In this document: in pieces, positions 9,851 to 63,790 of the stretch | Numbering within the stretch: the first letter of the stretch is position 1 | How the letters are laid out: each line of letters opens with the position of its first letter | Assembly (NCBI GenBank): GCA_963575745.1 | Contig: CAUYUJ010016358.1 | Location: 193,204-257,203, forward strand | Source: Prorocentrum cordatum | Taxonomy: Eukaryota > Sar > Dinophyceae > Prorocentrales > Prorocentraceae | Length of the DNA: 64,000 nt | Direction: 5' to 3' | The notes under the pieces: model-generated | Databases searched by the model: none | Told to the model about the DNA's origin: nothing | What the model saw: only the letters and a program-made list of their open reading frames with translations | Translations under genes and position numbers: made by a program

Positions 9851-9851
9851 G

Positions 9852-12474: not shown

Positions 12475-13630
12475 TCACGCACCTCTCCTGCGGTACTGGC
12501 GAGGTCCTGGCTGGCGATGGCCTGCTCCTCGGCGGGAGCCTCCCTCCACGCGCCGCGCCCGCTTGGCCATGCACAACTCCGCAATGCGCAGGCCCAGCAC
12601 GCCTGCCATACGCTTCTGTGCCTCCGCTGGCACTGGCTGCTCCTCGTTCGGGTGGGCCGAGAGCTGCTGCAGCACGACGGTCTCCAGCTCGCCCACCGTG
12701 ATGCCGAACCCGCCGATGACGTCCTGCGCCATGGCCTGGCCCGCAGGCCGCGGCTGTGGAGCCTGCGGCGCCTGCTGCTGCAGCTGCACCAGCTCGGCCT
12801 GCAGCGGCACCTGCTGTTCCAGGAGGTCTGCATGCACCTTCTCCGCGCGCTCAACCTCCTCCACGGCCCGCCACAAGGCCTCCTGCGCCTTCCGTTTGTT
12901 GCCCTCCGCCTTCTCCAGGCGCTCGGCGCACTGCTTGGCCTTGTTGGCGATGGCGTGCGTCCTAGCGTGGGGTGGCTTGCTGGCGATGAGCCGCGCCTTG
13001 GCCTTCTCCAGCCTGGCGCGCAGTTCCTCCCGCGGCGCCGTGGCCCAGTCCGCCGTCTGATCCTTGATGGCGTGCATGCCCGACTCGCACATGTGGATCT
13101 CGGCGAGCACCGCCGCGTCGCCCGCACCAGCGCCTTCGCCGACGTCGACCTCCATGGCCTGCACCCCGCCGAGCGGCCCGCCAGCGCTGGCAGGCCCACT
13201 GGCCTTGAGCTGCTTCTTGAGGTCCGCAAGCTCGCGCTTCGCCTGGGCCAGCTGCACCGGGAGCGGCGGCCCTGCCCAGGGAGGGGCCTTGCCGCTGCCG
13301 CCGCCTGGCGCCGCACCCGACTTCGAGTTCGACTTGGCCGCCGCCGGGAACGGGACGTTCGCCCCGAAGCGCGTGGCCTTGGGCAGTTTGTAGCCCTGAC
13401 ACTTGACCGCCGTCCCCCAATTGACGACCGCTCGGCCCCCTTGGCCCGCGGCACGCCGCCAGCCATCTTGCACTCGTTGTCGCCCTCGCAGCGCCTCCAG
13501 TGCCCGCCAACGCCAGGAGCCGCCCGCGCGCTGGCAAAGGCGATGGTCCGAACCTGAGGGGGCAGGCCGCGCGAAACGAAAGCTGCCGCGGACTAGCGGT
13601 ATCCGTTTGGCCCCCACGGGAACCGCACAT
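12475..13630 (-). pseudogene. LINE ORF1, coiled-coil protein, frameshifted
   Basis: Directly after the DinoSL (ending at 13631) comes an ATG at 13630, CTCAAG joined to ATGTGCGG. That frame soon loses coding character. From about 13460 another minus-strand frame is convincing down to a stop at 12475. It is Lys/Ala/Gly-rich, then has a long coiled coil (QLAQAKRELADLKKQL; RLEKAEGNKRKAQEA; VERAEKVHADLLEQQ), then a Gln/Pro-rich segment and a basic tail. ORF1 proteins of LINEs bind the element RNA. A RanBP2-type zinc finger like that of the intact element is not clearly present. The frame change near 13460-13600 implies decay. Confidence 0.65.
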
Positions 13631-13651
13631 CTTGAGCCAAAATGGCTACGG
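13631..13651 (-). other. perfect DinoSL copy (21 nt)
   Basis: The minus strand matches the 21-nt core of the dinoflagellate spliced leader without a mismatch, from CCGTAGCC to GGCTCAAG, and ends immediately at an ATG. A genomic leader in this position is the footprint of reverse transcription of a trans-spliced transcript. Confidence 0.97.
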
Positions 13652-13660
13652 ACGAGGAAA

Positions 13661-31180: not shown

Positions 31181-31189
31181 GATTTGAGT

Positions 31190-31585
31190 CGTTTGGGGTT
31201 TCTCGTCCTGGTGTGCGTCGTTCGGGCCCTTCTTCCTGGTGTGAGTCGTTCGGGCTCTTTGTGGTGTGAGTCGTTCGGGCTCTTCGTCCGGGTGTGAGTC
31301 GTTCGGGCCCCTCGTGGTGTGAGTTGTTCGGGCCCCTCATCCTGGTGTGAGTCGTTCGGGCCCCTCCTCCTGGTGTGACTCGTTCGGGCTCCTCGTGGTG
31401 TGAGTCGTTCGGGGCGCGCGTCGTGGTGTGAGTCGTTCGGGCTCCTCGTGGTGTGAGTCGTTCGGGCGCCTCGTCCTGGTGTGAGTCGTTCGGGCCCCTC
31501 CTTGTGGTGTGAGTCGTTCGGGCTCCTTCGTGGTGTGAGTCGTTCGGGCCCCTCGTCCTGGTGTGAGTCGTTCGGGCTCCTCGTG
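31190..31585. repeat. GTGAGTCGTTCGGG array, copy 1
   Basis: About 14 units of 25-28 bp sharing GTGAGTCGTTCGGGC, in the orientation opposite to the 33.5-35.2 kb array. Confidence 0.93.
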
Positions 31586-31800
31586 GGGCCTCTTGGGGGC
31601 CTCTGGGAGCCTCTTGGGGGCCTCTTGGGGGCCTCTTGGGGGCCTCTTGGGGGCGTATTGGGGGCCTCGTGGGGCCCTTGGGGGCCTCTTGGGGGCCTCT
31701 TGGGGGCCTCGTGGGGCCTCTTGGGGGCCTCTTGGGGGCCTCTTGGAGGCCTCTTGGGAGCCTCCTGGGGGCCTTTTGGGGCCATCTTGGGGCTTCTTGC
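31575..31800. repeat. GGGGGCCTCTT minisatellite
   Basis: GGGGGCCTCTT units of about 11 bp, nearly perfect between 31590 and 31760. It directly continues the previous array, and the same pairing of arrays occurs at 39.3-39.5, 39.85-40.0 and 40.95-41.06 kb. Confidence 0.9.
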
Positions 31801-31814
31801 GACCTCCTCAGAAG

Positions 31815-31960
31815 CGCAAATGAGCGCTGCCCCCTGAGAAGGACAAAATGAGCCCAAAACCTTCGTAAAATCAATGATTCTGCTAGGAGGGAAGATAAGC
31901 GCGGCCCCCTTCAGAAGGCCAAAATGGGCCCAACACCGTAGTAAAATCATCGGTTTTTGC
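31815..31960. repeat. two-copy duplication of about 75 bp
   Basis: GCCCCCTGAGAAGGACAAAA, CGTAAAATCA is repeated in diverged form as GGCCCCCTTCAGAAGGCCAA, TAGTAAAATCA. Confidence 0.65.
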
Positions 31961-32086
31961 TTCGAAGACGAGCTGAGGCACCAAACCCCCCCCTCCCCCG
32001 GGGCCAGAATCCTCGTGAGGGTAGTCGTTTTTTGGCCCTCCCAGGAGTCGAAAAAGGCACCCTTGACACCACTCGGAACTCCCTCT

Positions 32087-32375
32087 CCAGGTCCAGGGGA
32101 GGGGGTAGGGGGAGGGGTAAACCCCTACCCGAAGGGGAAGAAGGGTTGAGGACAGAGGGGGCTCGCTAAACCACTCACGCCCTAAGGGCTGGTGGGATTT
32201 TAGCTCTCCCAGAGATAGACAAAGGACCCTCTGACGATCCGCGGAAGGCCCCTTCCAGGTCCAGGGGGAGGGGGCAGGGGGAGGGGTCAACCCCTCGCCG
32301 AAGGGGAAGAAGGGAGGTTGAGAACAGAGCGGGCCCCCTAAACCACTCACGCTCAAAGGGCTGGTGGGATTTCGT
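32087..32375. repeat. 168-bp direct duplication
   Basis: CCAGGTCCAGGGG starts at 32087 and 32255. Both copies contain a GGGGGAGGGG stretch, CCGAAGGGGAAGAAGG and CTAAACCACTCACG, and end with GGGCTGGTGGGATTT. Confidence 0.85.
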
Positions 32376-32389
32376 TTTTCGGGGTTTCA

Positions 32390-33540
32390 GTGCGCACTTG
32401 TCCGGTGGAGCTCCAGTGTCACAGAAGATGCCTCTGTGGCTGCCTCGTCGTCGAGACGCTTCGAATGCTGTGTAGTTTCCTCGTAGCCTCCTTTCCATGC
32501 CTCTGTAGCTTCCACGCGCTCCTGCGTCGCCGAGTTTCTTCTTGCAGCGTCCTTGTCGTGTCGCGGGGTGCGTTTGCGTCACTTCGGTGTTGCTGCGCCT
32601 TGAGACGTGTCTCTGCAGCTTCTCCGTCTCATCGGGGACTCCAGCGTCACCGAATTGGTTCCCGTATTGCGCTTGTCGTTCCAGGTCGTGCGCACGCGCG
32701 CAGAATGTTTCTCTGCTGCGTCCTTGTCGCATCAGGATCTCCAGCGTCGCAGAATGTATCCTTGTAGCGCCTCTTCTTCCAGGGCGGCGTGGTCCCGAGT
32801 CGCCGCGGACGACTCGCCGGGGACGGTTCCATTCGATTCCACGGACGATCGTGCGCATGTAGTTTGCCACGCGCCTGCGCGCGCGCGGAGAGGGCCTGGG
32901 CGCCCTGCCGCCTGCGGGCGACCGCGCGGGTTAGCCCCCGTTGAAGCCCAAAAAAGGCATTTCCACACGCCGGGTAAAGCCTAGAAGGGCTTTCGTCTGC
33001 CTGATCCTTGCCCCCCGCTTTCCTCCTTCTTCTTTCATCGAAGTCAGAACCCCCGCCCCCTATGACGTCCTCCGCTGGCCTGGGTGGTCTACTCAGGTCG
33101 CGGGGGGGGATAGGGGGGGGGTCGTTGCCACGGCTGGTGCCTCGTTTTCATGACGGGGAGGGGGGGGTGCACCGTTCCCTCGGATGGGCACATCCCCCCC
33201 TCCAAGGGCCTCCGAGCCCTCCCTCTCCGTCCTTTTCTTCTCCCTTATCCTTCCCTCCCTCGCGGTTTTCGAAGCCTTTGGCGCCTCCGCCCACCACCCT
33301 TGGGAGTATCCTAATGGCCTCCGGCCCACCCCGCCACCGTGCCGTGCCGGCGGATAAGAGGCGCATGGAGTAGACGAGATGGTTAAAGGGGGAGCCAGTG
33401 GCTTCAATCGGGCGTTGTGGAGCGCGCGCGCGCAGTTGGGTTCTGCAGGGTGTCCCTGGGGGTTGTCTTTTTGTCAGTGTATACAAAGGGGGAAATGTTG
33501 TCGAATTTGGGACGTATGGTTCTTTCTTTTTGCATGCGTC
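32390..33540. other. degenerate repeats, no gene recognised
   Basis: From 32400 to 32790 short related blocks recur (CAGCGTC, CGAATTGG or CAGAATGT, then TTGTAGC or CTGCAGC), like an old tandem array. The rest to 33540 is unassigned and contains G and C runs at 33105-33175. Confidence 0.45.
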
Positions 33541-35190
33541 TGGGCCCCGAACGGCTCACGCGAGGACGAGGGGCCCGAACGACTCACACCGCGAGGAGCC
33601 CGAACGACTCACGCACAAGGAGGGGCCCGAACGACTCACACCAGGACGAGGGGCCCGAACGACTCACACCACGAGGAGCCCGAACGACTCACACACAAGG
33701 AGGAACCCGAACGACTCACCCCAGGACGAGGGCCCCGAACGACTCACACCACGAGGAGCCCGAACGCCTCACACACAAGGAGGGGCCCGAACGAATCACA
33801 CCAGGACGAGGGGCCCGAACGACTCACACCACGAGGAGCCCGAACGACTCACACAAGGAGGGGCCCGAACGAATCACACCAGGACGAGGGGCCCGAACGA
33901 CTCACACGTCGAGGAACCCGAAAGAGTCACACACAAGGAGGGGCCCGAACGACGCACACCAGGACGAGGGACCCGAACGACTCACACCACGAGGAGCCCG
34001 AACGACACACACACAAGGAGGAGCCCGAACGACTCGCACGAGGACGAGGGGCCCGACCGACTCACACCACGAGGAGCCCGAACGACTCACACTCAAGGAA
34101 GAACCCGAACGACTCACACCAGGACGAGGGGCCCGAACGACTCACCCAACGGGGAGCCCGAACGATTCACACACAAGGAAGGGCCCGAACGACTCACACC
34201 AGGACGAGGGACCCGAACGACTCACACCACGAGGAGCCCGAACGACTCACACACAAGGAGGGGCCCGACGAATCGCAACAGGACGTGAGGCCCGAACGAC
34301 TCACACGTCGAGGAACCCGAAAGAGTCACACACAAGGAGGGGCCCGAACGACGCACGCCAGGACGAGGGGCCCGAACGATTCGAACGACTCACACCAGGA
34401 CGGAGCCCGAACGACTCACACCACGAGGAGCCCGAACGACTCACAAGGAAGGGGGGCCCGAACGACTCACACCAGGACGAGGGGTGACTCACGACTCACA
34501 CGAGGAGCCCGAACGACTCACACACAAGGAGGGGCTCGAACGGCTCGCACCAGGACGAGGGCCCGAACGACTCACGCCACGAGGAGCCCGAACGACTCAC
34601 ACACAAGGAGGAGCCCGAACGTCTCACACGAGGACGAGGGGCCCGAACGACTCGCACCACGAGGAGCCCGAACGACTCACACTCAAGGAAGAACCCGAAC
34701 GACTCACACCAGGACGAGGGGCCCGAACGACTCACCCCACGGGGAGCCCGAACGACTCACACTCAAGGAAGGGCCCGAACGACTCACACCAGGACAAGGG
34801 ACCCTAACGAATCACACCACGAGGAGCCCGAACGACTCACACACAAGGAGGGGCCCGAACGAATCACAACAGGACGAGAGGCCCGAACGACTCACATCAC
34901 GAGGAGCTCGAACGACTCACCCGCAAGAAGGGGCCCGAACGACCCACACCAGGACGAGGGGCCCGAACGACTCACACCACGAGGAGCCCGAACCACTCAC
35001 ACACAAGGAGGGACCCGAACGACTCACACCAGGACGGGGGGGCCGAACGACTCACACCAGGACGAGGGGCCCGAGCGACTCACACCACGAGGGGCCCGAA
35101 CGACTCACACACAAGGGGGGGTTCGAACGACTCACACCAGGACGAGAGGCCCGAACGACTCGCGCCACGAGGAGCCCGAACGACACACAC
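33541..35190. repeat. 80-bp higher-order tandem array (CCGAACGACTCAC)
   Basis: Three related monomers of about 28, 25 and 27 bp, all containing CCCGAACGACTCACAC but ending CAGGAC, CAC or ACAAG, repeat in fixed order to give an 80-bp higher-order unit. About 20 such units are seen, with some deletions. No monomer contains a stop in any plus frame, so all three frames are open for hundreds of codons; this is a repeat property, not evidence for protein. Confidence 0.95.
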
Positions 35191-35219
35191 AACGAGGGGA
35201 CTTCTGGGTGTCTTCTGTG

Positions 35220-35965
35220 GTTCTCGTGAGTTTTCTGTGAGTCGTTCGGGTGGTTTTCTGCGAGTCGTTTGGGCCGCTCGTTTCCTGGGTTTTTTTGTGA
35301 GTCGTTCGAGCCGTTCGCTCGTTTGCGCATGCTTCTGGGGGTTTTCTGTGAGTCGTTCGGGCCGCTCGTCCTGGTGTGAGTCGTTCGGGTCCCTCCTTGT
35401 GTGTAAGTCGTTCGGGCTCCCCGTGGTGTGAGTCGTTCGGGCTCCTCGTGGTGTGAGTCGTTCGGGCCCCTCGTCCTGATGTGAGTCGTTCGGGCCCCTC
35501 CTTGTGTGTGAGTCGTTCGGGCTCCTCGTGGTGTGAGTCGTTCGGGCCCGTCGTCCTGGTGTGAGTCGTTCGGCCCCCTCCTTGTGTGTGAGTCGTTCGG
35601 GCCCCTCGTGGCGTGAGTCGTTCGGGCCTCTCGTCCTGGTGTGATTTTTTCGGGCCCCTCCTTGTGTGGGTCGTTCGGGCTCCTCGTGGTGTGAGTCGTT
35701 CGGGCCCCTCGTCCTGGTGTGAGTCGTTCGGGCCCCTCCGTGTGTGTGAGTCGTTCGGGCTCCTCGTGGTGTGAGTCGTTCGGGCCCCTCGTCCTGGTGT
35801 GAGTCGTTCGGGCCCCTGCTCGTGTGTGAGTCGTTCGGGTTCCACGTGGTGTGAGTCGTTCGAGCCCCTCGTCCTGGTGTGAGTCGTTCGGGCCCCTTCT
35901 TGTGCGTGAGTCGTTCGGGGTCCTCGTGGTGTGTGTCGTTCGGGCCCCTCGTCCTGGTATCTCGC
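35220..35965. repeat. same array in inverted orientation
   Basis: GTGAGTCGTTCGGG monomers of the same three types in the opposite orientation, starting within about 30 bp of the end of the previous array. Together they form an inverted repeat with arms of roughly 700 bp. Confidence 0.93.
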
Positions 35966-36191
35966 CTTCGCTGGTTCCTCCGGTCTCGCCTTTGCTGGTG
36001 CCTAGTTCTCCTGGTTTTTTCTGGTTTCCTATCGGGTTTACTGATCGTGCTGGCTCTGGGGATTTCACTATTGCTGGTTCCTGGGAGTCGTGACAAGGGG
36101 CTCGGGTTCACAAGGGAGTGTGACGAAGGCTAGGGTCCACAAGGGTTTTACCATCAGAGGGTCGAAGGGGTTACGATTCCCTAGCGATTTT

Positions 36192-36242
36192 CCGTAGCCA
36201 TTGTGGCCCAAGGCAAGTTGGCCCAAGCCATATTTGGCTTAC
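36192..36242 (+). other. three tandem DinoSL relics
   Basis: 36192-36212 matches the 21-nt leader with two substitutions (CCGTAGCCATTGTGGCCCAA then G). 36213-36227 (GCAAGTTGGCCCAAG) and 36228-36242 (CCATATTTGGCTTAC) are two more degenerate copies missing their first bases. Successive leaders are expected when a retrogene is transcribed, trans-spliced just upstream of the old relic and retroposed again. Confidence 0.85.
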
Positions 36243-36328
36243 TGTTAGCTCCGCGTACCATTTGTGCAGTGAGCTTAGCTTTGACTCACGCTCTTCTTTC
36301 CAACATCTGAGGGCGTGCGACAGAGTTT

Positions 36329-39310
36329 ATGGAGATGCCAGTCGTGGACTTACGTGAGGTTCACGCGCCCTTGCCTCGAGCGGTGCGAGACTTGCAGGGG
36401 GCGATGATGGAAACGATGCCTGCGGCTGGAGACGGCGCGTGCGCCATTCATTCTGTGTGGGGCGAGTGGGAGTGGGGTGAGCTGGTCAAGCGCGACGCTC
36501 GCTCGTTTCTCCGCGAAGCATTCGGTCCCACCGTTGACATCTTCAAATCGAGGCTGTCGTCCGAGGAGCTGCTGGGCGACATGGAATGGGCACTCTGGGA
36601 TTTGATCCAACCCTTTGCGAAGCAGTCGGACCCCTTCGGTGCTCCGCTGCACGCGGGAGATAACGAAGGTCAGCACGTGTGGCACTGCCTTCTGGAATCC
36701 TATTTCGACATTGCTCAGCGCTGCGTTGAGGCATGTCGGGAAGAACTGCAAAAGTTTGAATTGCACAGGGAGCGTGAAACAAGGATAATGCAAGAGTTTG
36801 GTTCTCTCTGCGTCGAAGATTTTCAGGATGTCTTCATAATGCTTTTGATGCGATCCCTGGGGTTGTTGGATAAGTACACGGCAGAAGCATCTGATGAGTT
36901 CTCCGGAGGGCGCCGCCTGAGCAAGTGCGAGGCGCTGTTCGCGGGAACCGCTGGCGCTCGAGAGTGGCACAGAAGTGTCGTTGAAGACGCATGTCTCCAG
37001 AACTCATTCGATTTGTTTTTCAGTAAGATTCACGACGTGGCTGACGGCCTCGATTTCGACGGCGGCGTCGATCTGGAACCTGCAACGGCTTTCGCAGAGT
37101 CTGTGGACAAGGCCAGGGAGTGCAACTACCAATCTGCCGGGCTGCCCGCAAATTTCTTCAACGCTGTCTATCCTGCCTATCTGGAAGCCATGACTACGTG
37201 CGCATATTATTATTATTTCAGTGACATCGAACTGCTTGCGCTGGCGCGTTGCAAGAGGCAGAATGTCGTCATTTTCGTGCACTGCTCTGCGACGCACGAG
37301 TTGACACACGCGCGTTCGCACGTCGGAGACCCGAGCCTTCCGGTGGTCGCCACGTCCCTGCGAGATGACGGCGGACAGGGTGCTGTCCGAACACACTTCG
37401 AGCGGCTGCGGGTTCGCCCGCAGGAGCATTTGCCTGGGCGGGGGAGAAGCCCGGAAGGCGATCGCTCCACTGAAGATGATGGGCACAGAGAGGCGAAGCG
37501 CCCGAAAACCCAGAGTGAAAGAGCCCCGGCACGTCCCCCTGCCGAAGAGAGAAGCCGCGGAGACGGGAACGATGGAGCGGTGGGGCTGCCGCCGCCGCCG
37601 CCTGGGGCGCGCGCTGGGCGGCGCGCGACCGGCGGAAAGTCTGGATTGCATCTGGGGGAGGATTTCGAAATGCATAGTGGATGCGACGCCGGTTGCGACG
37701 ACCACGTCAATGCGGCGGAGAGCCAGGGCGCAGCCTCGGGAATGCCGGCTGTCGCCGCGACTGAAGGAGGCCAGTGCGTCACGGACGTGCTCGATTTCTT
37801 GGGGTTTCAGTGCCCAGGCCATGCAGGAACGCCAGCTGTCGAGGCAACTGACAGAGACAAAGGCATCGCTTCGGGGTCAAGCGAAGGCGCCGGCGAGGAA
37901 TCTGAAAGCGAAGGGGGCGACGGCGTGGAGGAGCCATATTTTGCAGTTGGCACCAACGCGGAGCAGGTCCGTGGAGCGCCCGTGGAAATGGGCGCGATTG
38001 ATGGCCGCTGCCGAGAACTCCGCAAACTCATGCGAGAACGGCCCACGCTGCCGCTGACAGCGGACGGCGCAGTCTTGACAGCTCCCGATATGGAAACTGG
38101 AGTGAAGTTGCCTTTGTACTCGTGTCCTTTCCAGAACAACCAGAGTGGGCCTTGCCGTTTCCACGCGAGTGACCGGGCAGCCTTCTTGCACCATATTGCC
38201 GGGGGCGCCAGGGATCGCACGCATGCCAGCGTGATAAGTAAGATCTGCAACAATGATATTCGCTGGATGACGAACTTGGACTACGTATACGGGGCCATGG
38301 CCGTTGCCGAGCGGGAGCGGTGGCCAATGTTGGGGCTGTCGACAACTCGGCGATCCCTGAACCTGCTCGCGCTTCGTCACAACGACGAGACGACGAGATG
38401 TCTGGCCTGTTTCATACGCGGTCAGCTTCGCACGACGTGCGCGGGGTACCCGCCAGTTGACCTGGAGTCGAGTTCCATCTCCCTCGCGTCTGGCAACGTC
38501 GAGATAAAATATTGGAAAGAGGCGGCTTTCCAGGACGTTGAAAAGAACTTCCCTGGAACCCTGCTCAACAACTGCGGGTTCGATCTATGGCAGAAGCGGT
38601 GCGTGGATGGGGACCTCGCGTCAAGCAAGGCGTACCCGTGGAGAGGACAACAGGTGTTAAGTGAACCGTTGAGCACCTGTGTTGGAAACCAGGAGCGCCA
38701 CGTGTCGCGGTGGGCCGTCCAGTTCAGCCTCGAAGGCAGATCAGGGAAGTTATTCGGGTGCACTGAGGACGTCCGCTGTTTCGCGTGCCCCGACAGACAT
38801 TCGGAGGATTGGGAGGCGCCGCCGTTTTGCAGGAAACTCTGCCCGCAGTGCGAGGTGCCAGTTTGCCGCGACTGCACGGGGAAATTAAGGGATCACGAGG
38901 CGGCATCCTCGTTCCTCGACGGCGGGACCATCCCTATGAGCATAGCGAACGACCATTACTACGGCCACGTGAGTCGATACATTGTGGAGAACGACGTCAC
39001 GTGGCTGGAGTGCGCGGCGTGCTGCACCGTGTGGAGTACGATGTTGGTCTATTACCTGGAGGCCCCGCGCGGCAACCTGATCGACGTCCCGCTCGGCAAG
39101 CCGGAAGCCAGGACGCAGGTGAAGGTCGGGCCCCCGGAGACCAGGACAAAAATAAACCAGGACACGGAAAACCAAGCAATCGACATCTTTTCCTGCAGTG
39201 TCACGTTTTTCAGCACCCGTGCAAGTTGTGCTCGCTGCGCTGCAGGACTCGGGTTTGCGTCTGGGTTCGAGGCCTGTGGTCGGGTTTATTTTCGAAATGC
39301 AGCAGTGCAG
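36329..39310 (+). CDS. OTU protease / Helitron-like protein, C-terminally truncated
   Basis: The ATG at 36329 follows the leader relics by 87 bp and opens an uninterrupted frame. Residues about 1-360 look like an OTU cysteine protease: GDGACAIHS (Asp35, Cys38) and a final THFERLR His motif near 355. Residues about 360-590 are a low-complexity, acidic and basic linker. Then come Cys/His-rich segments (CPFQNNQSGPCRFH; CFACPDRH; LCPQCEVPVCRDC) and ANDHYYGHVSRYIVENDVTW. The last segment resembles the Cys-rich region N-terminal to Rep-helicase in Helitron-type proteins, where OTU domains are also known. No Rep or helicase is present. From about 39310 the frame runs into minisatellite DNA to a stop at 39559, so the real C-terminus is lost; homology may already shift frame near 39195. 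Confidence 0.6.
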
Positions 39311-41072
39311 TGTTTCGTTCGCGCGGGCCTCTTGGGGGCGTCTTGGAGGCTCCGGAGGCCTCGTGGGGGATTATTGGGCGCCTCTTGGGGGACTCTTGGG
39401 GGCCTCTTGCGGCGTCTTGGGGCTTCTTGGGGGCCTCTCGGGGGCCTTTTGGGAGCCTATGGGAGCGTCTTGGGAGCCTCTTGGGGGCCTCGTCCTTCCT
39501 TGTGTGAGCGCCTCGGGCCTCTCACTGTGTGTGAGTCGTTCGGGTTCCTCGTAGTGTGAGTCGTTCGGGCCCCTGGTCCTGGTGTGCGTCGTTCGGGCCC
39601 TTCCTTGTGTGTGAGTCGTTCGGGCTTCTCATTCTGTGAGTCGTTCGGGCCCCTCGTCCTGGTGTGAGTCGTTCGGGCCCTTCCTTGTGGTGCGAGTCGT
39701 TCGGGCTCCTCGTGGTGCGAGTCGTTCGAACCGCTCGTCCTGGTGTGCGTCGCTCGGGCCCCTCCTTGTGTGTGAGTTGTTCGGGCTCCTCGTGGTGTGA
39801 GTCGCTGGGGCCCCTCGTCCTGGGGTGAGTCGTTAGGCCTCCTCGTGGGCGTCTTGGGGGCCTTTTGGAAGCTCTCGGGGCTCCTTGGGGCGCTCTTTGT
39901 GGTCTCTTGGGCGCCTCGGGGGGGCCTCGAGAGGCGTCTTGGGGCTTCTTGGAAGCCTCTTTGGGGCCTCTGGGGGGCCTCTGGGGGCCTCTTGGGGGCG
40001 TCTTGGGGGCCTCGTCCTTCCTTGTGTGGGTCCCTCGGGCCCCCCAGTGTGTGTGAGTCGCTCGGGTTCCTCGTAGTGTGAGTCGTTCGGAGCCCTGGTC
40101 CTGGCGTGCGTCGTTCGGGCCCCTCCTGGTGTGTGAGTCCTTCGGGCTCCTCACGGTGTGAGTCGTTCGGGCCCCTCGTCCTCGCGTGAGTCGTTCGGGC
40201 GCCTCCTTGCGTGTGAGTCGTTCGGGCTCCTCGTGGTGTGAGTCGTTCCGACCGCTCGTCCTGGCGCGCGTCGTTCGGGCCCCTCCTTGTGTGTAAGTTG
40301 GTCGGGCTCCTCGTGGTGTGAGTCGTTGGGGCCCCTCGTCCTGGGGTGAGTGGTTCGGGCCCCGCATTGTATGTGAGTCGTTCGGGCTCCTCGTGGCGTG
40401 CGTCGTTCGGGCCCCTCCTTGTGTGTGAGTCCTTCGGGCTCCTCGTGGTGTGAGTCGTTCGGGCCCCTCGTCCTGGCGTGAGTCGTTCGGGCGCCTCCTT
40501 GCGTGCGAGTCCTTCGGGCTCCTCGTGGTGTGAGTCGTTCGGACCGCTCGTCCTGGTGTGCGTCGCTCGGGCCCCTCCTTGTGTGTAAGTTGTTCGGGCT
40601 CCTCGTGGTGTTCGTCGCCCCTCGTCCTGGGGTGAGTGGTTCGGGCCCCGCATTGTATGTGAGTCGTTGGGGCTCCTTGTGGTGTGAGTCGTTCGGGCCC
40701 CTCGTCCTGGCGTGCGTCGTCCGGGCCCCTCCTTGCGCGTGAGTCGTTCGAGTTCCTCGTGGTGGGAGTCGTTCGAGCCCTTCGTCCTGGTGTGAGTCGT
40801 TCGGGCTCCTCGTGGTGTGAGTCGTTCGGGCGCCTCGTCTTGGTGCGAGGCGTTCGGGCCCTTCCTTGTGGAGTAACTCGTTCTGGCTCCTCGTGGTGTG
40901 AGTCGTTGGGGTCTTTCGTCCTGGTGTGAGTCGTTCGGGCTCCTCGTTGGGCCTGTTGGGGGCCTCTTGGAGCTCTTGGGGCGTCTGGGGGGCCTCTTGG
41001 GGGCCTCTTGGGGGCCTCTTGGAGCCTCTTGGGGCCTCTTGGGGGCCTCTTGGGAGCATCGAGGGGACCTCT
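39311..41072. repeat. alternating GGGGGCCTCTT and GTGAGTCGTTCGGG arrays
   Basis: Blocks alternate: minisatellite (39320-39495), GTGAGTCGTTCGGG monomers (39530-39840), minisatellite (39845-40015), monomers (40050-40945), minisatellite (40950-41060). The last block ends about 12 bp before the DinoSL of the LINE, so the element appears to have inserted in or next to the array. Long open frames here are repeat artefacts. Confidence 0.93.
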
Positions 41073-41093
41073 CCGTAGCCATTTTGGCTCAAG
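41073..41093 (+). other. perfect DinoSL copy (21 nt)
   Basis: Exact match to the leader core from CCGTAGCC to GGCTCAAG, followed directly by ATGGTGTGC. The other LINE has the same kind of junction (CTCAAG then ATGTGCGG). The ATG at 41094 is out of frame with ORF1. Confidence 0.98.
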
Positions 41094-41197
41094 ATGGTGT
41101 GCTCGGGAGGCTTTCAGCCTCCGTGCATTCGCGAGAGCTGCCGCTGCAGCAACCTCCAGTGCCCTTGTGGGCTCGTGTCGGCGCGTGGGGCGCACCG

Positions 41198-42280
41198 ATG
41201 GCGGGCGGCGAGAACGACTGGGAGGTCAAGGGCGGCGGTCGGCGCAACAGGAAGCAGAAGCCGTCTCTGGTGTGGACAGTCGGAGGCAAAGGCGGTGGCT
41301 CGTCCTGGGTGGGGGCGGGCCCGAGTGACACATGGACGTGTGGGGCTTGCGGTACAGGTGCGAACTGGAGTACGCGTACGTCCTGCCGGGCCTGTGGCGC
41401 GGGTCGCCCTGGGTACAAAGGCAAGGGCAAGGTCACTTCCACGCCTGAGGTGGGGCAGTGGTCCCGCACCTCCTTCCCACCAGTGGCGGCCAGGCCTTGG
41501 CGCGCGGCCGCGGAGGCCAAGGCGCCTACGGCTTTGCAGAAGCTGGAGGAGCGCAGGAAGGTCCTGGTCCAGTGCGCCAAAGACTGGGGGGGTGACGCGC
41601 CTCACCTCGACCAGGCGGTGGCCGACGTCGACAGGCAGATCCAGGACGCCAAGGCGGAGCGCACGCAGGCGAAGCCTTTGTCTGGCCAGCTGCGTGAGGC
41701 GCAGGTCCAGCTGGGGCAGATCGACAGGCAGCTTGAGCGCTTGGCAGAGACCGAGAGGAAGGCCAACCAGATGCTGCTCGAGGTCAAGAAGGAGAGGGAT
41801 GAGGCTGCGAAGCGCAAGGAGGAGCTGGCGACCACGATCCTGGAGCTCCAGGGGAAGATTGCGGTGGCGGGCCCAGCGGCCCCAGCCTCAAACCTCGACG
41901 TCATCCGAGTGCAGTTGGAGTGCATCGCCAAGTCCGTCGGCAGCGACATCCAGTCCCTCGGCCTCAATTTTGCCACGCTCGAGTCCCTCCTGGAGGCCAA
42001 GGCTAAGGAAGGGGCAGCAAAGGCTGAGGCTGCTGATACTGGTGCTGCTAAGCAGCCTGGTCAGGCTGACGACGGGGACGGTACAGAGGACGAATCCATG
42101 GGAGACATCGTGGGGGCTGAGGAGTTGCCACCAGGTGTCACCGAGACCGAACGTAAGTGGATTAACGGGCAGGAGCCAGTGCCCGACCAGGAGGAGAACC
42201 CGCACTTGTTCAAGCGGTACCAAGAGGTGCTCATGTCGGTGCATTCCTGCCAGTTGGCCAAGAGGCAGCGAAAAGGGTAG
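41198..42280 (+). CDS. LINE ORF1: RanBP2-type zinc finger and coiled-coil RNA-binding protein
   Basis: A 360-residue protein. Residues about 45-70 form a RanBP2-type zinc finger (WTCGACGTGANWSTRTSCRA then CG), a fold that binds single-stranded RNA. Residues about 110-225 are a long coiled coil, including AVADVDRQIQDAKAERTQAK, RLAETERKANQMLLEVKKER. The C-terminal third is acidic with a basic end (KRQRKG). ORF1 proteins package the element RNA and often form trimers through the coiled coil. I chose the ATG at 41198 because it is the first in this frame after the leader. The upstream ATG at 41094 opens a competing frame that overlaps ORF1 for its whole length but has the Arg/Cys/Ser composition of a shadow. 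ORF2 starts 6 bp after the TAG. Confidence 0.9.
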   Translation: MAGGENDWEVKGGGRRNRKQKPSLVWTVGGKGGGSSWVGAGPSDTWTCGACGTGANWSTRTSCRACGAGRPGYKGKGKVTSTPEVGQWSRTSFPPVAARPWRAAAEAKAPTALQKLEERRKVLVQCAKDWGGDAPHLDQAVADVDRQIQDAKAERTQAKPLSGQLREAQVQLGQIDRQLERLAETERKANQMLLEVKKERDEAAKRKEELATTILELQGKIAVAGPAAPASNLDVIRVQLECIAKSVGSDIQSLGLNFATLESLLEAKAKEGAAKAEAADTGAAKQPGQADDGDGTEDESMGDIVGAEELPPGVTETERKWINGQEPVPDQEENPHLFKRYQEVLMSVHSCQLAKRQRKG

Positions 42281-42286
42281 CTTGCC

Positions 42287-45200
42287 ATGCGACCTCTTGT
42301 TCCTGGTGCTCAATGGGACCCACCTCGGTTACCCCGAGCGCCGTGGAGAGGCGCGGTCCAGGTGCAGCTGCGCCAGAGCGGGAAGGCCCTCCCTTGGGAC
42401 GACAGCCGCTGGAACCCTGAGGGGTGGGAGGCGGAGTTCGGGGGGTGCGAGAGTGAAGGGCACCGACGGGACGTAGAGCAGATGGATGATGAGCGTGGCG
42501 GGCGCGCAGCAGCGGGAGCCAGCCAGAGGGCGGGAAGTGTGGCCAGGTCCACGCCCGCGGGGCCAGTGCGCGGCCCACGGCCTGCGGCATTGGCGAGGAG
42601 CGAGCACGGTGCCTTGAGGGCGGGAAGTGTGGCCAGGTCCACGCCCGCGGGGCCGTCGCGCGGCTTCGTGCCTGCGGCGACGGCGAGGAGTCAGGGGGCA
42701 GATTCGGGCCAGTGGCGAGGATACGCGAGGGTCCTGCACGACAATCGCATGATGAGGCTTTTGGTTGACAAGGTGAATGACGACAAGCAGGTGGTCATTG
42801 TGTGGACCTTCAACGGCTCGGGATGGGGGACCATCAGAGAGAAGCTCTTGGAGAAGAAGGTGGGGCAGCAGAAGCACATCTACGCTTTCCAGGAGCACCG
42901 CCTGAAAGAGGACCAGTGGGCTGGAGTTACCCACAGTATGCGTCAGAGAGGCTACCAAGTGGGTGGAGCGGTGGCCGTGCCCACGCTAGGCCCCATGGGT
43001 GAGCCAGGAACCTCTGCAGGTGTGGGAATCGCTGTGCCGAACAGGATTGGCATGGCGTATGTGTGTGGGCAGACCAGCTGGGACTGGTCCCCCAGAGGAT
43101 CCCCAGGAAGAGCTGCAGCGGCATGGGTTGCAGTAGGTAGAGGCGGCATAGTGGTCGCGACGGTGTACCTGTGGACGGCCGAGCAGATGTCGCGGCGGAA
43201 CAGGGGGCTGATGGACCACGTGCTGGGGAAGCTGCACGAGCTCAACATGCCGTGGGTGTTGTGCGGGGACTTCCAGAATGCCCCTGCCGTCCTGGCGGGT
43301 TTGGATTCGATCAAGCTCATTGGCGCGACGCTGGTGGCCCCCTCTGCTGCGAGCGGAACTTGTCGGACTGCGAGTGGATGTTCCACAATAGACTATTTCG
43401 TGGTATCGAGGGAGTTGGCAGGCCAAGTGAGGAAGGTGGCCATCCACGAGTCGTGGCCTTCGGCGCCGCACAAGCCGGTGGGGATCACGCTCGACCTGAG
43501 GCCGCAGGAGAGGAAGGAGCGGATTCTCATCACGCCGAAGAAGTTGGAAGGAATCAGCATCGGGCGCGCGCCTGAGCCGCCCGTATACGACGAGGTGGGG
43601 GTTTTCAGCGACGTGGCGGTAGCGACCAGGACCTGGGCTTCCTTCATTGGCAAGCTGGAGCGCGAGGCTTTCGCGCTGCGGGGGCTGGAGTGGCACCCCA
43701 GGCATGAGTGCGCAGGGCGTGCGGACCCACCGCGCTGGAAAGAGAGAGCGATCCTCAGAGGGGGCGGCAACCACCCAGCCCCGCAAGGAGACGCTCTGTG
43801 GTGGAGGTGGCTCGCGCGCTCTTTGCAGACCCTGGCGGGGAATTACGAGAGGCTCAGGTCGTCCTCGGGTAGTGCCCGTGCGCGCCAGGAGTGGTGCATG
43901 ATAGCTAGTGATCTGGAGGAACGCTTCAGGAGCGTGAGCCACGAGTTCAGGTGCGAGCTGGTCGGCGAGGAGAAGGAGCGGTGGAGAGAAAGGTGTACCT
44001 TGCTGGCGAAAGGGCGCTGGCGAGGTGCTGACCAGAAAGCCAGCCTGGACGCGATGATCCTGGAGGCCAAGGAGCGGTCCAGGCGGGAGGACCAGGACCT
44101 GATAAATGAAAGAAGGAGGCAGTGGGCTGCGAAGCTGGAGGAGGCTGCGAAAGGAGCAGCGGGCGGACTCCACAGAATCAGCAAACCAGTGGACATCTGG
44201 AGGCCGAGGAGAGCGAGTACACCCCAAGCTTCGGCAGACCCGTTGCGGGCAGCGGAAGCGGCCCTGGGAGAGTGGAATGCAGTCTGGAAGGTGAACGACC
44301 CGATGCAGGAGCAGGAGCGGCGGTGGGAGACGGAGCCGCGCCAGGAGTTGCCAGAGTTCACGGAGGGCGACTTGGCCAAGTTAAAGAAAGTGGCGCGCAC
44401 CTTCAAGAGAAAGACAGCACAAGGAGTGGACCGTTGGCACCCCTCCATGCTGCTAGGGGCTTCGGACGCAGCGCACTGGACGCTCCTGCAGATCCTGAGG
44501 GAGGTGGAGCGCACGCTCGTCTGGCCGCAGCATGCAGCCACGGTCATTTTCTTCCTGATCCCGAAGAGTGTAGCGGTCGATCGTGCCATCGGCCTCCTCC
44601 CGACCCTGGTGAGGGTGTGGGAGATCATGAGGGAGCCCTACATGATCGAGTGGGCCAAGGCGAACCAGCGCTCTTGGGATTGCACGGCCTTCGGCAAGGC
44701 GGCGGAGGACGCGGCTTGGGAGGTTCTCCTCGCCAACGAGGGCGACGAGGTGCAGGATTCGGACCCGCGCACCCTAGCGACGGTGACGGCCATCCTCGAC
44801 CTGGTCAAGGCTTTCGAGAGGGTGAGCTTGCATGTGCTGTGGGAGCGTGGCAAGGCCATGGGCTTCAACACGGGGGTGCTGGCGGTGGTGTGCTCCTATT
44901 TTGCCATGGCGAGGCGAGTCAACACGGGGGAGGCCATCTCGGAGGAGACGAGGACTGTGGCGACGATCATCGCGGGCAGCAAGTTCTCGGTGGGTTTCCT
45001 CAAGATGGTCATCCAGGACACGATTGACGGTTTGGTAGTGGAGTACCCGCTGGTTCAATGGAGGATGTATGTCGACGACCTGTGCCTCAAGCAGCGAGGG
45101 GCGCAGCAGTGGATCGTGGATAGCTTCCCGTCCGTTGTGGACGACAGCGTGGACGGCTTCGCGGCCTTGGGGCTCGAGTTCTCCCTGGGCGACCAGGGCA

Positions 45201-47763
45201 AGGGGGCGGTCATGGCCAGCACCAAGTGGCTGAGGCAGGCTCTCAAGCAGGATGCAGCAGAGAGAGGGTTGCCCATGGTGCTGGCCTGCCCTTACCTCGG
45301 AGTCGACGTGGTGGCCCACGGGACGGCGGCAAAGAACAAGAGTGGCAAGAGGTTCAAGCGCATGAGGAACAGGGTCGCCAGGCTAAAGGGGCTGAAAGGC
45401 TCAGGCAAAGGTGTGACTAGAGGGATTGGTTTGGTGTACAAGTGCGGCCTCAAGAGATCGGTAATGTATGGGTGCAAGTGCCTGGGCATGCCAGACCACC
45501 AGCTGCAGCAGGTAAGGAGAGCGGCAGGTCAGTTGCTTCCAGGTTCCAGAGGAGCCAAGAGCCTCACCCTGCAGTTGGCGGTGCTGAAGGAGGACCCCAC
45601 CGAGGAGGCCACACTTGCGCCGGTGGTCAGGTGGGCGAGGGCCGTCTGGGAGCAGGCCGTGGCAGGAGACCTGAGAGTGCTCGTTGCAGGGGGCCAGGGG
45701 CAGGCGCAACCCTGTCGTCAGCAGGCCTTCTGTCCTGAGGCGGGTGCTAGGCTCAGGGATGCCCTCGGTGTCTGGACGGCGTTGTGGATCAAGGATCTGA
45801 GGGGCGAGAAGCACCAGCGGCAGGAGGACTGGAGCCAGTGGAGTGTTCCCCTGGTCGCAGAGTATCTGCAGGAGGCAGCGCAGGCAGGCCTCCGCAGTGA
45901 ACTCAGGAGGGAGGCGGCTTCCAAGGCCACAGGTGGAAGCTTGCCCCAGGAGGAGGCTCAGGAGGCGGAGTATCTTGCTGCAGAGGTGTGTCGGCGTGCG
46001 TGGCGGAGGGCGTGCTGGAGAAGGCGTGCAGCCTTCCGTTACCTCGACGCGCTCGACGAGGATTGCCGCGCCCAGGTCATCTCGCAGTACAGGCAAGAGC
46101 AGGTCGCGCTGCAGAAGGTGGTGCGGCGGCTGCTGGTGTCGAGAGGGGCGCAATGTCCCTGGGAAGGAAGCGAAGGAGGCATGCAGGAAGAGGAAGGCTA
46201 CCTCGGTGTCAGCACCATTGAGAGCCTGGTCGAGCTGCTGCTGGTGGCGGGCAGCCAGATGGAGATCGCGGAGGACAAGATAAGCAGGAGGACGAGTGTC
46301 GGCAGTGAGGCTGTCCTCCTGAGCGAGCAGATGAGCAACGCGTGGAGGCAGCAGCAGAAGGAGGTGGGCATGAGCCCGCAGTGGGCCAAGGTCAAAGGAC
46401 CCGCGGGGGCGGTCATCATGTCACTGAGGAGAGCGAGGTGGACCTGGCCGTCGTGGACGGTCTACTGCACAAAGGACGGCGAGATGGTGGACCTCACGGC
46501 GGTGTGCCCTACTGACGTCGGGGCGCTCCTCAGGGCTGACCTGCGCAAGGTGCTGTGGGAGCAGTGGACGGCGCAGCAGCCAGGCATGGAGAGCCTAGCC
46601 CCAGGCCCGAGGCTCCCGCCAGTGGTGGCGCAGCTGGCCGCGCGGGCTTTCCCCGCGCATGCGAAGCGGGCGGCTCGGAAGGTGGTGCTGGCGGGGGCCT
46701 GGACCATGAACAGGCTTGCCGAGGTCAGCATCACGCCGACCGACATCTGCATTGGGTGTGGGCTGGCGGTCGGCACCCCGCATCATCGTTTCTTTCGGTG
46801 CCCCGCGCTGCTCGAGGTCAGGAGGCGAGCGCAGGCGGAGTGGCAGCACGTGGCGGAGCAGCAGGAGGACAGTTTGCTCTGGACGCGTGGGCTGGCGCGG
46901 GACCCCTCGGCGGACTGGGCCCACAGGTCGGTCGACGAGGCGGACTTCCACTGCGACGTCCTCCAGGGGACGGACGCCCTCCTGTCGGGCGACATCGTGT
47001 GCGACGGCTCCAAGCTGGGCACCAGCTGCTGGGCGCAGGCGGGGTGGGCCGCGATGGCCATCGACGCGGGAGGCGCCCCCACGGTGCAGCTCTGGGGCCC
47101 CCTGCCATGCCGCTTCAAGGAGCAGAAGACGGTCAAGAGGGCCGAGATGTGGGCCTTCTTAAAGACCTTGGAGACGGTGCTGCCGCCGTGCAGGATCTTC
47201 ACGGACCACCAGGGCATCCTTGACGGCATCAGGCGGGGGCCGAGATGGTGCTTAAGTTGGGGAAGGCCGCGCGCGGACGTCTGGAGGAGGATCTGGCACA
47301 AGATCGCGGACGTGGGACTTGAGCCAGAGTGGGTGATGCATGTGAAGGCCCACAGGTCCAGAGTGGCCATCAGCAGGCTCGAGGGCTTGGCGCAGCAAGT
47401 GGCCAGGGGCAATGAAGCGGTGGACGCCCTGGCCAAGCGTGGAGCCGCGGAGGACATCGGGCACGGCAGGGAGCAGACCCTGGAGAGCCTGGATGAGAAG
47501 GTGAAGTGGGCCATCCAGAACATCGGTTGGTGGTGCCAGGAGATGAAAGAAGGGTGGCCCGACGTGCCGCCCAGGACGGGGCCGAGCAGAAGGAGGAAGC
47601 AGCAGAGGCCCTACGTCAGCCTCACGAGGCACGAGGTCGAGGTGTGTGGTGCTTGGCTGGTGTGCACGCGGTGCGGCAAGCGTGCAGCTTCGGCCAGGAT
47701 GAGGAACTTTGTAGCCCACCGTCGTTATGCAGCTTATGTCTGTAGTTATACAATGTGCAACTG
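42287..47763 (+). CDS. LINE ORF2: endonuclease, reverse transcriptase, RNase H
   Basis: An uninterrupted 1825-residue polyprotein. Residues about 168-405 are an APE-like endonuclease (FNGSGW, FQEHRL, CGDFQNAP, TIDYFVV, APHKPV). The RT core is at about 745-960 (FFLIPKS, LDLVKAFERV, AGSKFSVGF, and the catalytic box MYVDDL near 926). A zinc knuckle CIGCGLAVGTPHHRFFRC is near 1488. RNase H is at about 1568-1715 with all four acidic residues in VCDGS, RAEMWAF, FTDHQ and NEAVDALAKRGA, plus VKAHRS. It would nick target DNA, copy the RNA and remove the template. A 90-bp in-frame duplication near the N-terminus repeats GSVARSTPAGP (42531 and 42621). The ATG lies 6 bp after the ORF1 stop, suggesting reinitiation or coupled translation. 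Confidence 0.95.
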
Positions 47764-48557
47764 ATGTTATAGAATGGACAAGTTAAGGTATAACCAAGAC
47801 AAGCAGCAAAACTCAACTTATAACTTGCATGGCATTTATACCTGCATTATAGAACACATAATTGGTTATATTGGTAGTTATGCCACTTCAAGATAAACTT
47901 GACAACCGTTTTATATTTGGATACATGTAATTATATGTGGAAATATTCCACGTATAAACAGTTATGAACAGTTACGAATAGTTATGAAATCGCGGGAAAT
48001 TTCAACATAGAAAAAGGGGAGGAGGGAAGGGGGAAAACACACAATTGCAAAAACAGATGACGCGCCCGTCCTCGTCGTGGCCCACGATTCGCGAAAAGTC
48101 GTTGTCGTCGTCGTCGTTGTCGTGAGGGGTGGCTTGCTTCCCCTATCCTGGCCGCTCCATGGCATGTATCTCGGGCAGCCAGAAAACCGATCGGCGCATC
48201 GGGGCGCCCGCTATCGGATGCGCCGAAAGGAAGAGTGCTACTGCGGCCCGAGGTGCATGCCGCGGGGCGGCTGGCGGATTACGCTGGCCCTGCACGTCCA
48301 GCGCGTCGTGGCCAGCCGCGCAGGGTCTTAGCGGAGCCCCCCAAATGAGCGTTTCGCTTGACATCCTCGCACGCATGACGTGCTCGCAATGTGATAATCT
48401 TTTGCAAAACAGAATCACGTGCCAAAGCAAGAGCGGATCAAGCGCTTCGCCTGAGACATCTTCCAACAACTACATGTCGCCACGGCGTCGTTTGAGTTGT
48501 AGCTGACCCCCCGCGTAGCTTTTCGGCTAGCAGTTGGCACCGCGGAGACGGCCAGGT
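47764..48557. other. LINE 3' tail and intergenic DNA
   Basis: 47764-47995 is AT-rich with GTTATAGAA / GTTATGAACAGTTA-like short repeats and probably belongs to the LINE 3' end. 48090-48125 is a GTCGTC triplet run. Nothing else is recognised. A very weak leader-like string (CGTAGCTTTTCGGCT, 48514-48528) precedes the next gene and is not counted as a relic. Confidence 0.5.
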
Positions 48558-51144
48558 ATGCCTCCGAAGAAGCGGGCCCGGATTAGGCATAATGAGTTGG
48601 GCGTTTCGCAGGCTGCAATGGCGCGTCATCTAGCTGAGCAGGGGGATGGACCAACTGAGTCGGCCCACCGGCATCGGATACAGCAAGAACTGATAGATTT
48701 GACAAATATTTGGACGCCAGTTGGGCCCGTTGTTCAAGATATAGAGCTGCCCATGTTAGAAGACGGCAGCAAAATGTTGACGATTATCCATCCTGTTGCG
48801 ATGTTATATCACATGTGTGCCTCATGCGAGCAGTTCGCAGTCTTCCTTCGCCAGTGTTGCTCAGGTTTCGAGGGCGATGGCAATTTGTTGTTATACACAG
48901 ACGAATGCACGACTGGCAATCAGCTGAGGCACGACGCTATAGGGCGCGTGCAGACAGTTTACTGGTCTTTGAAAGTGTATCCACACTGGTGGAGATCTCG
49001 GCTATGCGGGTGGTGCGTCTTCACATTTTTGCCGTGCGATTGGCAATGTGCCATGGACGGCGGCTTGTCTGCTCTAGCCAAAATCATTCTGCACAAGTTT
49101 TTCATTGACGGCGCTTCGAACTTTCATACAGGCATCGCGCTGCCGTCCCGACATGGGCCGTTTGTGTTCAAATGTGGGATTGCCTGCTTTATCCAAGATG
49201 AAGCCGCCCATAAATCACTGTGTAGTGTGAAGGGCGCCAGCGGTTCGAAACCATGTTTGAAATGCAAAAACATAACAAAGGGGATTACGCATGAGCCGGG
49301 CGAAGAGTACTGGCGCGATGTGTCCGTTGCAATGCCAGAGGAGTTTGACGAGCACGATAGGGAAAGCTTCAATGAGATGATTGCCAGACTTGAGCGGGAT
49401 AAGTTGGTTTTGGGGAAAGGGCGTTTCCAGAATTTGCAACAGGTGTTAGGAGTGACTTATCATCCAGAGGCTGCCATTTTCGACCCTCAATGTAGGTTGC
49501 ACTTTTCACCGCCAGATCACGTGCATGAAGACTGGATGCACGCGGCAGCGGCCAGTGGGGGTTTTGGACAATATGCGCTGAATTCATTCCTGCTCAAATC
49601 GTTCCAGCATGGCGTGGTCGATGCAGATTTGGACGCGTTTCAACAGCAGATCTGCTGGCCATCGAATCGTGACGCCTTGCATCGAGAATTTTTCAGGAAA
49701 CGAGTCACGCAACCGAATCCAAATAAAAAGGAAGGTTCGAAGCATGAGCCCCATTTGAAATGTTTCGCATCGGAGACGATCCAGGCAACCCAGGCTGCAG
49801 TGTTATTTGCGATTGTCGTCATCATTCCCATGAATATTTTGACATCGGAATGCCGCTGCTTATTCCTGTTGAACCAGATGTTCGATATCTTAGGCGGGGG
49901 CCCTGCAGAAACAAATGGGGGCGCCACGATTCCCCAGACCCCCCCGCCCCCTCAAAAGCATCCCTGGGTTCAGCGGGGCGCCTTCTGGGCGAACTACTGC
50001 GCCCCCATGCTGTCGCGGGCCCCCGAAGGCCAAGGGGACAAAGCGGTCGAACACATCCCGTTGTTGAGGGCCGTCGTGCGAGAGCACCACAAACTAGTAA
50101 CGACGCTGGCGCGTGCCCTCCCACCCCCGCATTCTCTGTTGATCCACCACCCCCCTCGGCACCCCTCCCTGCCCGGACACTCCGCCCCATCAGCATCATC
50201 CTCCGCGTGCATCTGACGCTTTGCTGGCCCCGACCCCCCGAGCCTCACTGTCCTCGCCCATTTCCAGCCCCGCTTCCCTTGCGACCCACGCAGGCGGGGC
50301 GGGGGAGGGCGGGGATGAAGCGGGGAAGCGGGCAGCAGGAGGGGGGGGGAACGAGGGGGCGAGGAGGAATGAGACGATGATGAATAAAGGGGGAGGGGAT
50401 GGGATGGAGGATAGGGGTTTTAGAGAGGACGAAGACGAGGGCGAGGAGGAGGACGAGGAAGAGAGAAGAGGAATCGCCATGTTATGAGACACGCAGGTCG
50501 GACCCGCAAGGGCGAGCGGACTCATTAGGCTCTACGGCCCGAACGTTGCAAAGCCGAAGGTCCATAGCATGTACCATGTGGTTGACATGTTGGAGGCCCT
50601 GGGCGTTAACCTCACTTGTTTCGCGGGGGAGCGCAAACACCGAGAGTTGAAACGCATTACACGCAATAACCGTCCAGGTGATGCGGGGCAGTCCCACATG
50701 GTGAGGAAGTCAGTAGTGAAGTATACCCACGACTTGATAGATGAAACTTCTTTCGAGCCCACCTTCCTTATCGCCCAGTCCGCATCGCCAGAGCACATTC
50801 CAGTGATGCGGGCGATGTTTCGGGAGCTGGGCCCTGTCATTTATAAGGCCAAGAGCGCTCATAGCACGGTTGGCATTTTGAAAATAGGCGATTGCGTTCG
50901 CGGTATCAGCGCCGGCCAAATCTTCGTCGGCCTAGCCGAGTTGTTTCTGTCAGGGGCCCACAACATTTCGGGCGAGCATTTTTTTGTGATTCGCTTGCAG
51001 GCTGCCGAGCAACTCGAAGGGAGGCTCTGGCGCTTCACTGGGACATCCGTTTTCTATCCCCTCGAGTGTGTCAAAGGGGCCGTGCCGTACGTTTTGAAAT
51101 CGGGTGGTTTTCTCCCCTTGCTCCCGATGCTCGAGGCCATGTGA
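48558..51144 (+). CDS. transposase-like protein of a dinoflagellate multicopy family, split by an insert
   Basis: Part 1 (ATG 48558 to about 49893) has a basic NLS-like start (MPPKKRARIRHN), a helix-turn-helix-like segment, LLLYTDECTTGN, FFIDGASNFHTG, and FIQDEAAHKSLCSVKGASG followed by KPCLKC. Asp residues in the first two and Asp-Glu in the third could be a DDE/D catalytic set. Part 2 (50488-51144) resumes with LYGPNVAKPKVHSMYHVVD, a PKxHxxxH motif, and CFAGERKHRELKR. I infer a cut-and-paste transposase from this order of motifs; many dinoflagellate genomes hold such proteins, but no experimental function is known to me. Between the parts lie about 600 bp of GC- and GA-rich DNA with stops in the part 2 frame, either an intron or an insertion. 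The ORF containing part 1 reads into the insert to a stop at 50216. Confidence 0.6.
49894..50487. other. intron or insertion within the transposase-like gene
   Basis: C-rich then strongly GA-rich (50290-50475) DNA interrupting protein similarity between the LNQMFDIL and LYGPNVAKPK segments. Likely boundaries are uncertain; a CAG stands at 50494-50496 near the resumption of coding. Confidence 0.5.
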
Positions 51145-51315: not shown

Positions 51316-51337
51316 CCAGAGCCCATTCTGGCTCAAG
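51316..51337 (+). other. DinoSL relic
   Basis: CCAGAGCCCATTCTGGCTCA then AG: the 21-nt leader with three substitutions and one extra C. It ends 3 bp before the ATG at 51341 and is preceded by a C/T-rich stretch. Confidence 0.85.
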
Positions 51338-63774: not shown

Positions 63775-63790
63775 GCCATTTTGGCTCAAG
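63775..63790 (+). other. DinoSL relic (16 nt, perfect)
   Basis: GCCATTTTGGCTCAAG is exact, missing the first five bases of the leader. The preceding CCGCCATCCTATCAAG (63759-63773) may be a second, more decayed leader joined to it. Confidence 0.88.

Follow-up and report, generated by a model that had tools for sequence, protein, structure and literature searches.

How does a LINE come to begin, in genomic DNA, with a complete dinoflagellate spliced leader (DinoSL)? The question is raised by LINE-A, a two-ORF element in the window, by which we mean the whole 64-kb stretch of Prorocentrum cordatum DNA analyzed here. Directly 5' of LINE-A, at positions 41072-41093 of the forward strand, lies a complete and exact 22-nt DinoSL, TCCGTAGCCATTTTGGCTCAAG, one base longer than the 21 nt reported by the sequence-only reading that drew attention to the locus. 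The DinoSL consensus is DCCGUAGCCAUUUUGGCUCAAG, with D standing for U, A or G, in the part of PMC6616646 consulted. A scan of the window allowing up to three mismatches returned three matches, against a maximum of 0 in 100 shuffles; the perfect 22-mer is present twice, once at LINE-A and once at a second element, LINE-B.

Leader-started LINEs in the window and a probable third copy

The junction between leader and LINE-A reads CAAG/AT and is exon-like. Genes for SL RNA carry a GU or GC donor after the leader (PMC6616646, same part), so that the AT found here marks an exon-type join and not an SL RNA gene. The leader is followed by a 5' untranslated region of 104 nt (41094-41197, forward strand), whose ORF1-proximal part (VPLWARVGAWGAP in frame) resembles the homologous protein P0012, discussed below. 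The upstream flank of LINE-A is a minisatellite; long arrays of two minisatellites, of the TGAGTCGTTCGGG and GGGGCCTCTTGG types, occupy 31172-41072 between and beside inserted genes.

LINE-B is absent from the sequence-only reading and, like LINE-A, begins at a perfect, complete 22-nt DinoSL (13631-13652, reverse strand). Its body, delimited by open frames, tblastn and inspection by eye, extends over 8107-13630 of the same strand, the 8107 end being approximate. The first frame is open to 12478 and has the look of a coiled coil by eye; protein matches place the endonuclease at about 12214-11482 and the reverse transcriptase at about 10861-9879, and an RNase H region with a motif recognized by eye lies at about 8700-8200. 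The LINE-B ORF2 is broken; by eye, the reading frame changes at least four times and two stops lie in frame. When 22 LINE protein queries were run against the whole window by tblastn (E 1e-5), two loci were hit, LINE-A by 22 of the 22 queries and LINE-B by 11; the leader start is therefore found in two of the two LINEs detected, in a search that LINEs unlike the queries would escape.

The two elements are only distantly related. Local matches between the LINE-A ORF2 and LINE-B have 23-30% identity, the sequence after the leader aligns with a local score of 16 (shuffle mean 17.9), and the 60-nt flanks, a CTC-rich stretch upstream of LINE-B and the minisatellite upstream of LINE-A, are no more alike than shuffles. 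With distant ORF2s, and with post-leader sequence and flanks alike only at the level of shuffles, LINE-A and LINE-B represent two separate insertions.

Homologues of ORF2 extend the sample beyond the window. Besides P0001, the window's own protein, which ORF2 matches at 100%, 20 were found, 18 of them from P. cordatum. One of these, P0002, is encoded on another contig and is 94% identical over 68% of the query, which indicates that the LINE-A family itself has amplified. P0012, a gene model from a separate contig of 386,849 bases, is more diverged (54% identity over 62% of the query), and its N-terminal stretch reads SVAVLQ-VPSWVRIGAWGAPMAGG. Translating LINE-A from the leader with a gene-model-like GC-AG intron (41087-41149) omitted gives SVAILQPPVPLWARVGAWGAPMAGG, placed as SVAVLQ-VPSWVRIGAWGAPMAGG is in P0012; the annotation of the P. 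cordatum genome admitted GC donors, according to the part of PMC10666404 consulted. Across the 21 homologues, which total 34,536 aa, the pattern SVA[IVLM]L has a single occurrence, at the leader-like place of P0012, the peptide having been noticed on reading this N-terminus before it was put to the pattern count. Exact leader peptides are absent from all 21 homologues by exact pattern. P0012, known from a protein gene model where A and B were read as DNA, is probably a third leader-started copy whose leader has drifted, as judged from its sequence. Most of the other homologues' models begin at or after the ORF1 start and are uninformative on the leader. We conclude that the leader-tagged LINE is genuine and more than an isolated accident.

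Coding capacity, 3' end and age of LINE-A

Both reading frames of LINE-A are open, as the sequence-only reading had it. ORF1 (360 aa) spans 41198-42280 and ORF2 (1825 aa), supported by its open frame, Pfam matches and homologues, spans 42287-47764, starting six bases past the ORF1 stop; these and the features below are on the forward strand. The RanBP2 zinc finger and coiled coil attributed to ORF1 are weakly seen: Pfam gives a weak coiled-coil model and a RanBP2 finger (E 0.06), both below curated cut-offs, and the finger, WTCGACGTGANWSTRTSCRAC at 41333-41395, fits the pattern W.C..C....N......C..C at position 46 of P0001, whose start resembles ORF1. With these two features ORF1 is presumably RNA-binding. 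No ORF1 homologue was found among 8000 scored candidates, a search perhaps swamped by low-complexity words, or among the 215 candidates of a second search.

In ORF2, Pfam recognizes Exo_endo_phos (E 3.3e-4), RVT_1 (E 1.5e-4, below the gathering score) and RNase_H, all below curated cut-offs. The reverse transcriptase stretch (44762-45109) contains the YVDD motif noted previously (45068-45079) together with LDLVKAF, and the RNase H stretch (47000-47446) contains its four motifs, which bears out the earlier assignment of both domains. The claim that all catalytic motifs are kept is not confirmed in the APE-type endonuclease stretch (42878-43438): the Glu, Asp and His motifs are present, but the GDxN position reads GDFQ. 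In APE1 and L1, GDxN holds the catalytic Asn. The variant is shared within the family, GD[FV]Q being found by pattern in 10 of the 21 proteins (P0001 included) and by eye also in P0003 and P0010; P0020 has GDWN, and the remaining proteins gave no match to a GDxN-type pattern. The first endonuclease motif, FNG, and the reverse transcriptase motif AGSKFS were seen by eye in ORF2, and two badly written patterns (EN_N and RT_B), which matched 0 of 22 sequences, have no bearing on the presence of these motifs. No PDB match by sequence was found at E 0.01, and a predicted model of the reverse transcriptase (pLDDT 43) was left unused. Of the features of APE-type two-ORF non-LTR retrotransposons, LINE-A shows a reverse transcriptase with catalytic motifs and several family members in the genome.

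LINE-A had also been described as full-length, which comparison with its relatives does not confirm. The match of ORF2 to its relatives ends at 47707 (RMR/NFVAHRR), and the sequence from 47708 onward is unrelated and AT-rich (60-71% AT in the 300 bases to about 48007, in a window of 61% GC). Four of the 21 proteins gave a match to the C-terminal pattern, and they continue with KKLW (P0002 and P0015), LNMW (P0007) or LKMQ (P0003); by eye, P0012 also continues with KKLW past the end of ORF2 homology. Since family homology is lost at 47707, the 3' end of LINE-A is either truncated or interrupted. The ORF2 stop is probably fortuitous, and the copy, to judge from where the family match ends, may be immobile. 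We rejected the idea that the AT-rich block was inserted into the LINE and that the element continues past it; neither tblastn nor a KKLW codon pattern detected a continuation, in a search from which untranslated parts would escape. A 560-aa open frame behind the block (48534-50213, forward strand) has no Pfam match.

The check for target-site duplications proposed with the sequence-only reading gave none for LINE-A or LINE-B in the stretches searched. No exact repeat of at least 7 nt ending a few bases from the leader was found in the ~1.2-1.3 kb past either ORF2, nor was a duplication found at 47707; neither element offered a defined 3' end for this search, and a repeat could be missed.

Transposition had been called very recent on two grounds, and these fare differently. 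The open frames support it. A stretch of 6,555 nt would be without a stop with a probability of 0.07 at 1% neutral divergence and 0.03 at 1.4%, and, with 0.1 indel allowed for each substitution, it would stay open with a probability of 0.06 at only 0.3%; on its ORFs LINE-A thus looks young, unless selection kept them open. The perfect leader is of little use for dating the insertion. A 22-mer survives intact with a probability of 0.64 at 2% divergence and 0.51 at 3% (calculated as (1-d)^22), and the leader of LINE-B is perfect beside a broken ORF2, which makes a perfect leader a weak clock.

Probable origin and possible renewal of the leader

In our judgment LINE-A derives, with high probability, from a LINE mRNA that received its leader through host trans-splicing and was then copied as cDNA into the genome. 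This origin of the 5' end was already proposed from the sequence, and it is well supported by the exact leader, the CAAG/AT junction and the unrelated flanks, in a structure that is repeated in LINE-B and probably in P0012. Transcription of LINE-A would start at a flanking or read-through promoter, and the spliceosome would join DinoSL at an acceptor located at the element start. The ORF1 and ORF2 proteins would then bind the capped, leader-bearing mRNA and target-primed reverse transcription would run to its first base, the host leader thereby fixing a uniform 5' end.

A genomic copy alone does not reveal which reverse transcriptase made it, and a second reading keeps the same core with different machinery: another reverse transcriptase, for example that of a Ty1/copia element, would have copied the trans-spliced LINE mRNA in trans, and LINE-A would be a LINE retrogene. 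Many host genes are known to have given rise to SL-tagged retrogenes (PMC12014239 and PMC6050394, in the parts consulted), and the cut at 47707 and the lack of a detected target-site duplication at either element fit such an origin. Against it, both LINEs pair the SL start with the order ORF1, endonuclease, reverse transcriptase, RNase H, and P0002 attests to amplification of the family; we regard copying in trans as unlikely.

Nor would fresh trans-splicing be needed if DinoSL were an inherited, DNA-encoded first exon, captured once by an ancestor and since maintained by selection because it imitates the 5' ends of host messages. Such an exon would account for an identical leader at the equal place in two diverged LINEs, for the diverged leader inferred in P0012 and for the absence of tandem relics after A and B. 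It sits poorly with the dissimilarity of A and B right after the leader, which means that nothing beyond the leader would have been preserved, and with the drift of the leader inferred in P0012; the perfect leader of LINE-B needs no selection, given the survival of a 22-mer at 2% divergence calculated above. We consider this reading improbable. Still less credible, to the point of being nearly dismissed, is a LINE that inserts site-specifically into SL RNA genes in the manner of CRE, SLACS, CZAR and NeSL, so that the leader is target flank. The position of the leader immediately upstream of the element is what such a LINE would leave, but the flanks, a minisatellite at A and CTC-rich sequence at B, resemble each other only as shuffles do, and no Rfam family was found in the window at gathering scores (a weak point, which would count only if Rfam has a model of DinoSL RNA).

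Under trans-splicing of the LINE mRNA, the number of leaders per copy becomes informative. In the recycling model, as set out in the part of PMC3229502 consulted, re-splicing at the AG inside a copied leader truncates that leader, and relics accumulate with each cycle; tandem SL genes are another source of tandem leaders (PMC6616646, in part). In the 80 nt past the leader, the best candidates for a second relic match 7 of 15 positions in LINE-A and 8 of 15 in LINE-B, neither above chance. For comparison, a gene without LINE match carries a DinoSL with two mismatches (36191-36212, forward strand) followed by a probable degenerate 15-nt relic at 36213-36227 (11 of 15 positions; p about 0.013, uncorrected, at one of five sites tested). 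The contrast in relics is one of two LINEs with one gene. At the remaining two sites, 51323 (7 of 15) and 63776 (8 of 15), no further relic stood above chance.

These other leaders of the window were recorded in their own right. By eye, a possible third relic, CCATATTTGGCTTA, is contained in 36191-36240 (forward strand); in the open frame that follows, Pfam matched nothing in the first 290 aa. Relics of 15 nt lie upstream of reading frames at 63776-63790 (exact) and 51323-51337 (one mismatch), both on the forward strand, and mark probable retrogenes.

Single leaders in a LINE lineage that must have cycled many times suggest either that leader replaces leader or that the copies stem from sources with no leader in the genome; relics mutated past recognition are a third possibility. 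In the first case, splicing in the next round would fall exactly at the relic's terminal CAAG, the new leader replacing the old; in the second, SL-tagged copies would derive from source copies without a leader in their DNA. We tentatively extend the first case to a general proposal, which we hold to be possible though short of likely: several dinoflagellate LINE lineages would gain their leader each generation by trans-splicing, the terminal CAAG of the copied leader would be the next acceptor, the exact 5' end would be renewed without internal promoter or relics, and these LINEs, not Ty1/copia, would be the natural source of SL-tagged retrogenes. The narrower suggestion that machinery of the LINE-A type seeds SL-bearing retrogenes is plausible. 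Set against the recycling model, the lack of tandem relics after A and B is the most interesting part of the results, with two copies only. The leader start of LINE-A also poses the question of how an exact 5' end is preserved in an element whose leader comes from the host.

Comparison with known systems

A leader-started LINE with open ORFs suggests that LINE RNA enters trans-splicing and is reverse-transcribed all the way to the first base. LINEs thereby become candidates, open to test, for the machinery of mRNA recycling in dinoflagellates. A review calls the retroelement driving this recycling unknown and favors Ty1/copia (PMC6050394, in the part consulted). In the sections consulted, PMC8045281 treats the LINEs of Symbiodiniaceae and Polarella as old remnants, and PMC10235124 already proposes that LINEs supplied the machinery for SL-marked viral insertions in Symbiodinium. 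In the literature searched, from which most subscription papers fell outside, we found no description of dinoflagellate LINEs starting with DinoSL.

A search for related loci in viral contigs gave six pattern matches, none of them confirmed. Locus L001 (2746-2913, reverse strand) lies in a 7.2-kb contig of 22% GC filed as viral and has two exact DinoSL 21-mers at a distance of 147 nt. Behind one of the two, a GC-richer stretch containing an ATG can be seen by eye and may be a captured dinoflagellate cDNA. Exact 21-mers at L002 (32-52) and L003 (4334-4354) lie in contigs filed as Dehalococcoidia MAGs, possibly as eukaryote contamination. The 22 LINE queries printed no tblastn match to L001-L003.

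The closest known relatives of the structure are the SL-tagged retrogenes of dinoflagellates, in which a reverse-transcribed message likewise starts with DinoSL in the genome (PMC12014239, PMC6050394 and PMC3229502, in the parts consulted). In LINE-A that message comes from the LINE itself, and its one leader is complete where the recycling model expects truncated tandem relics after repeated cycles (PMC3229502, same part).

The trypanosomatid L1Tc/ingi elements are, as here, LINEs in a trans-splicing host. According to the part of PMC4748587 consulted, L1Tc does without the leader, having its own Pr77 promoter and unspliced transcripts. In positions 40900-41400 of the window, an Rfam search found no ribozyme family up to E 1 and returned one chance-level miRNA model (E 0.61). 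The LINEs CRE, SLACS, CZAR and NeSL insert site-specifically into SL RNA genes, and SL sequence stands beside the LINE in them as it does here; the flanks of LINE-A and LINE-B, however, are unrelated repeats.

In the genome of Schistosoma mansoni, six SL exons fused to transposable elements have been reported, and trans-spliced, reverse-transcribed elements were likewise suggested; assembly chimeras were not excluded by the authors, and the anatomy of the elements is absent from the portion of the text examined (PMC5832876). In P. cordatum, by comparison, two LINEs of distant relationship each have leader, ORF1 and ORF2 in one contiguous stretch.
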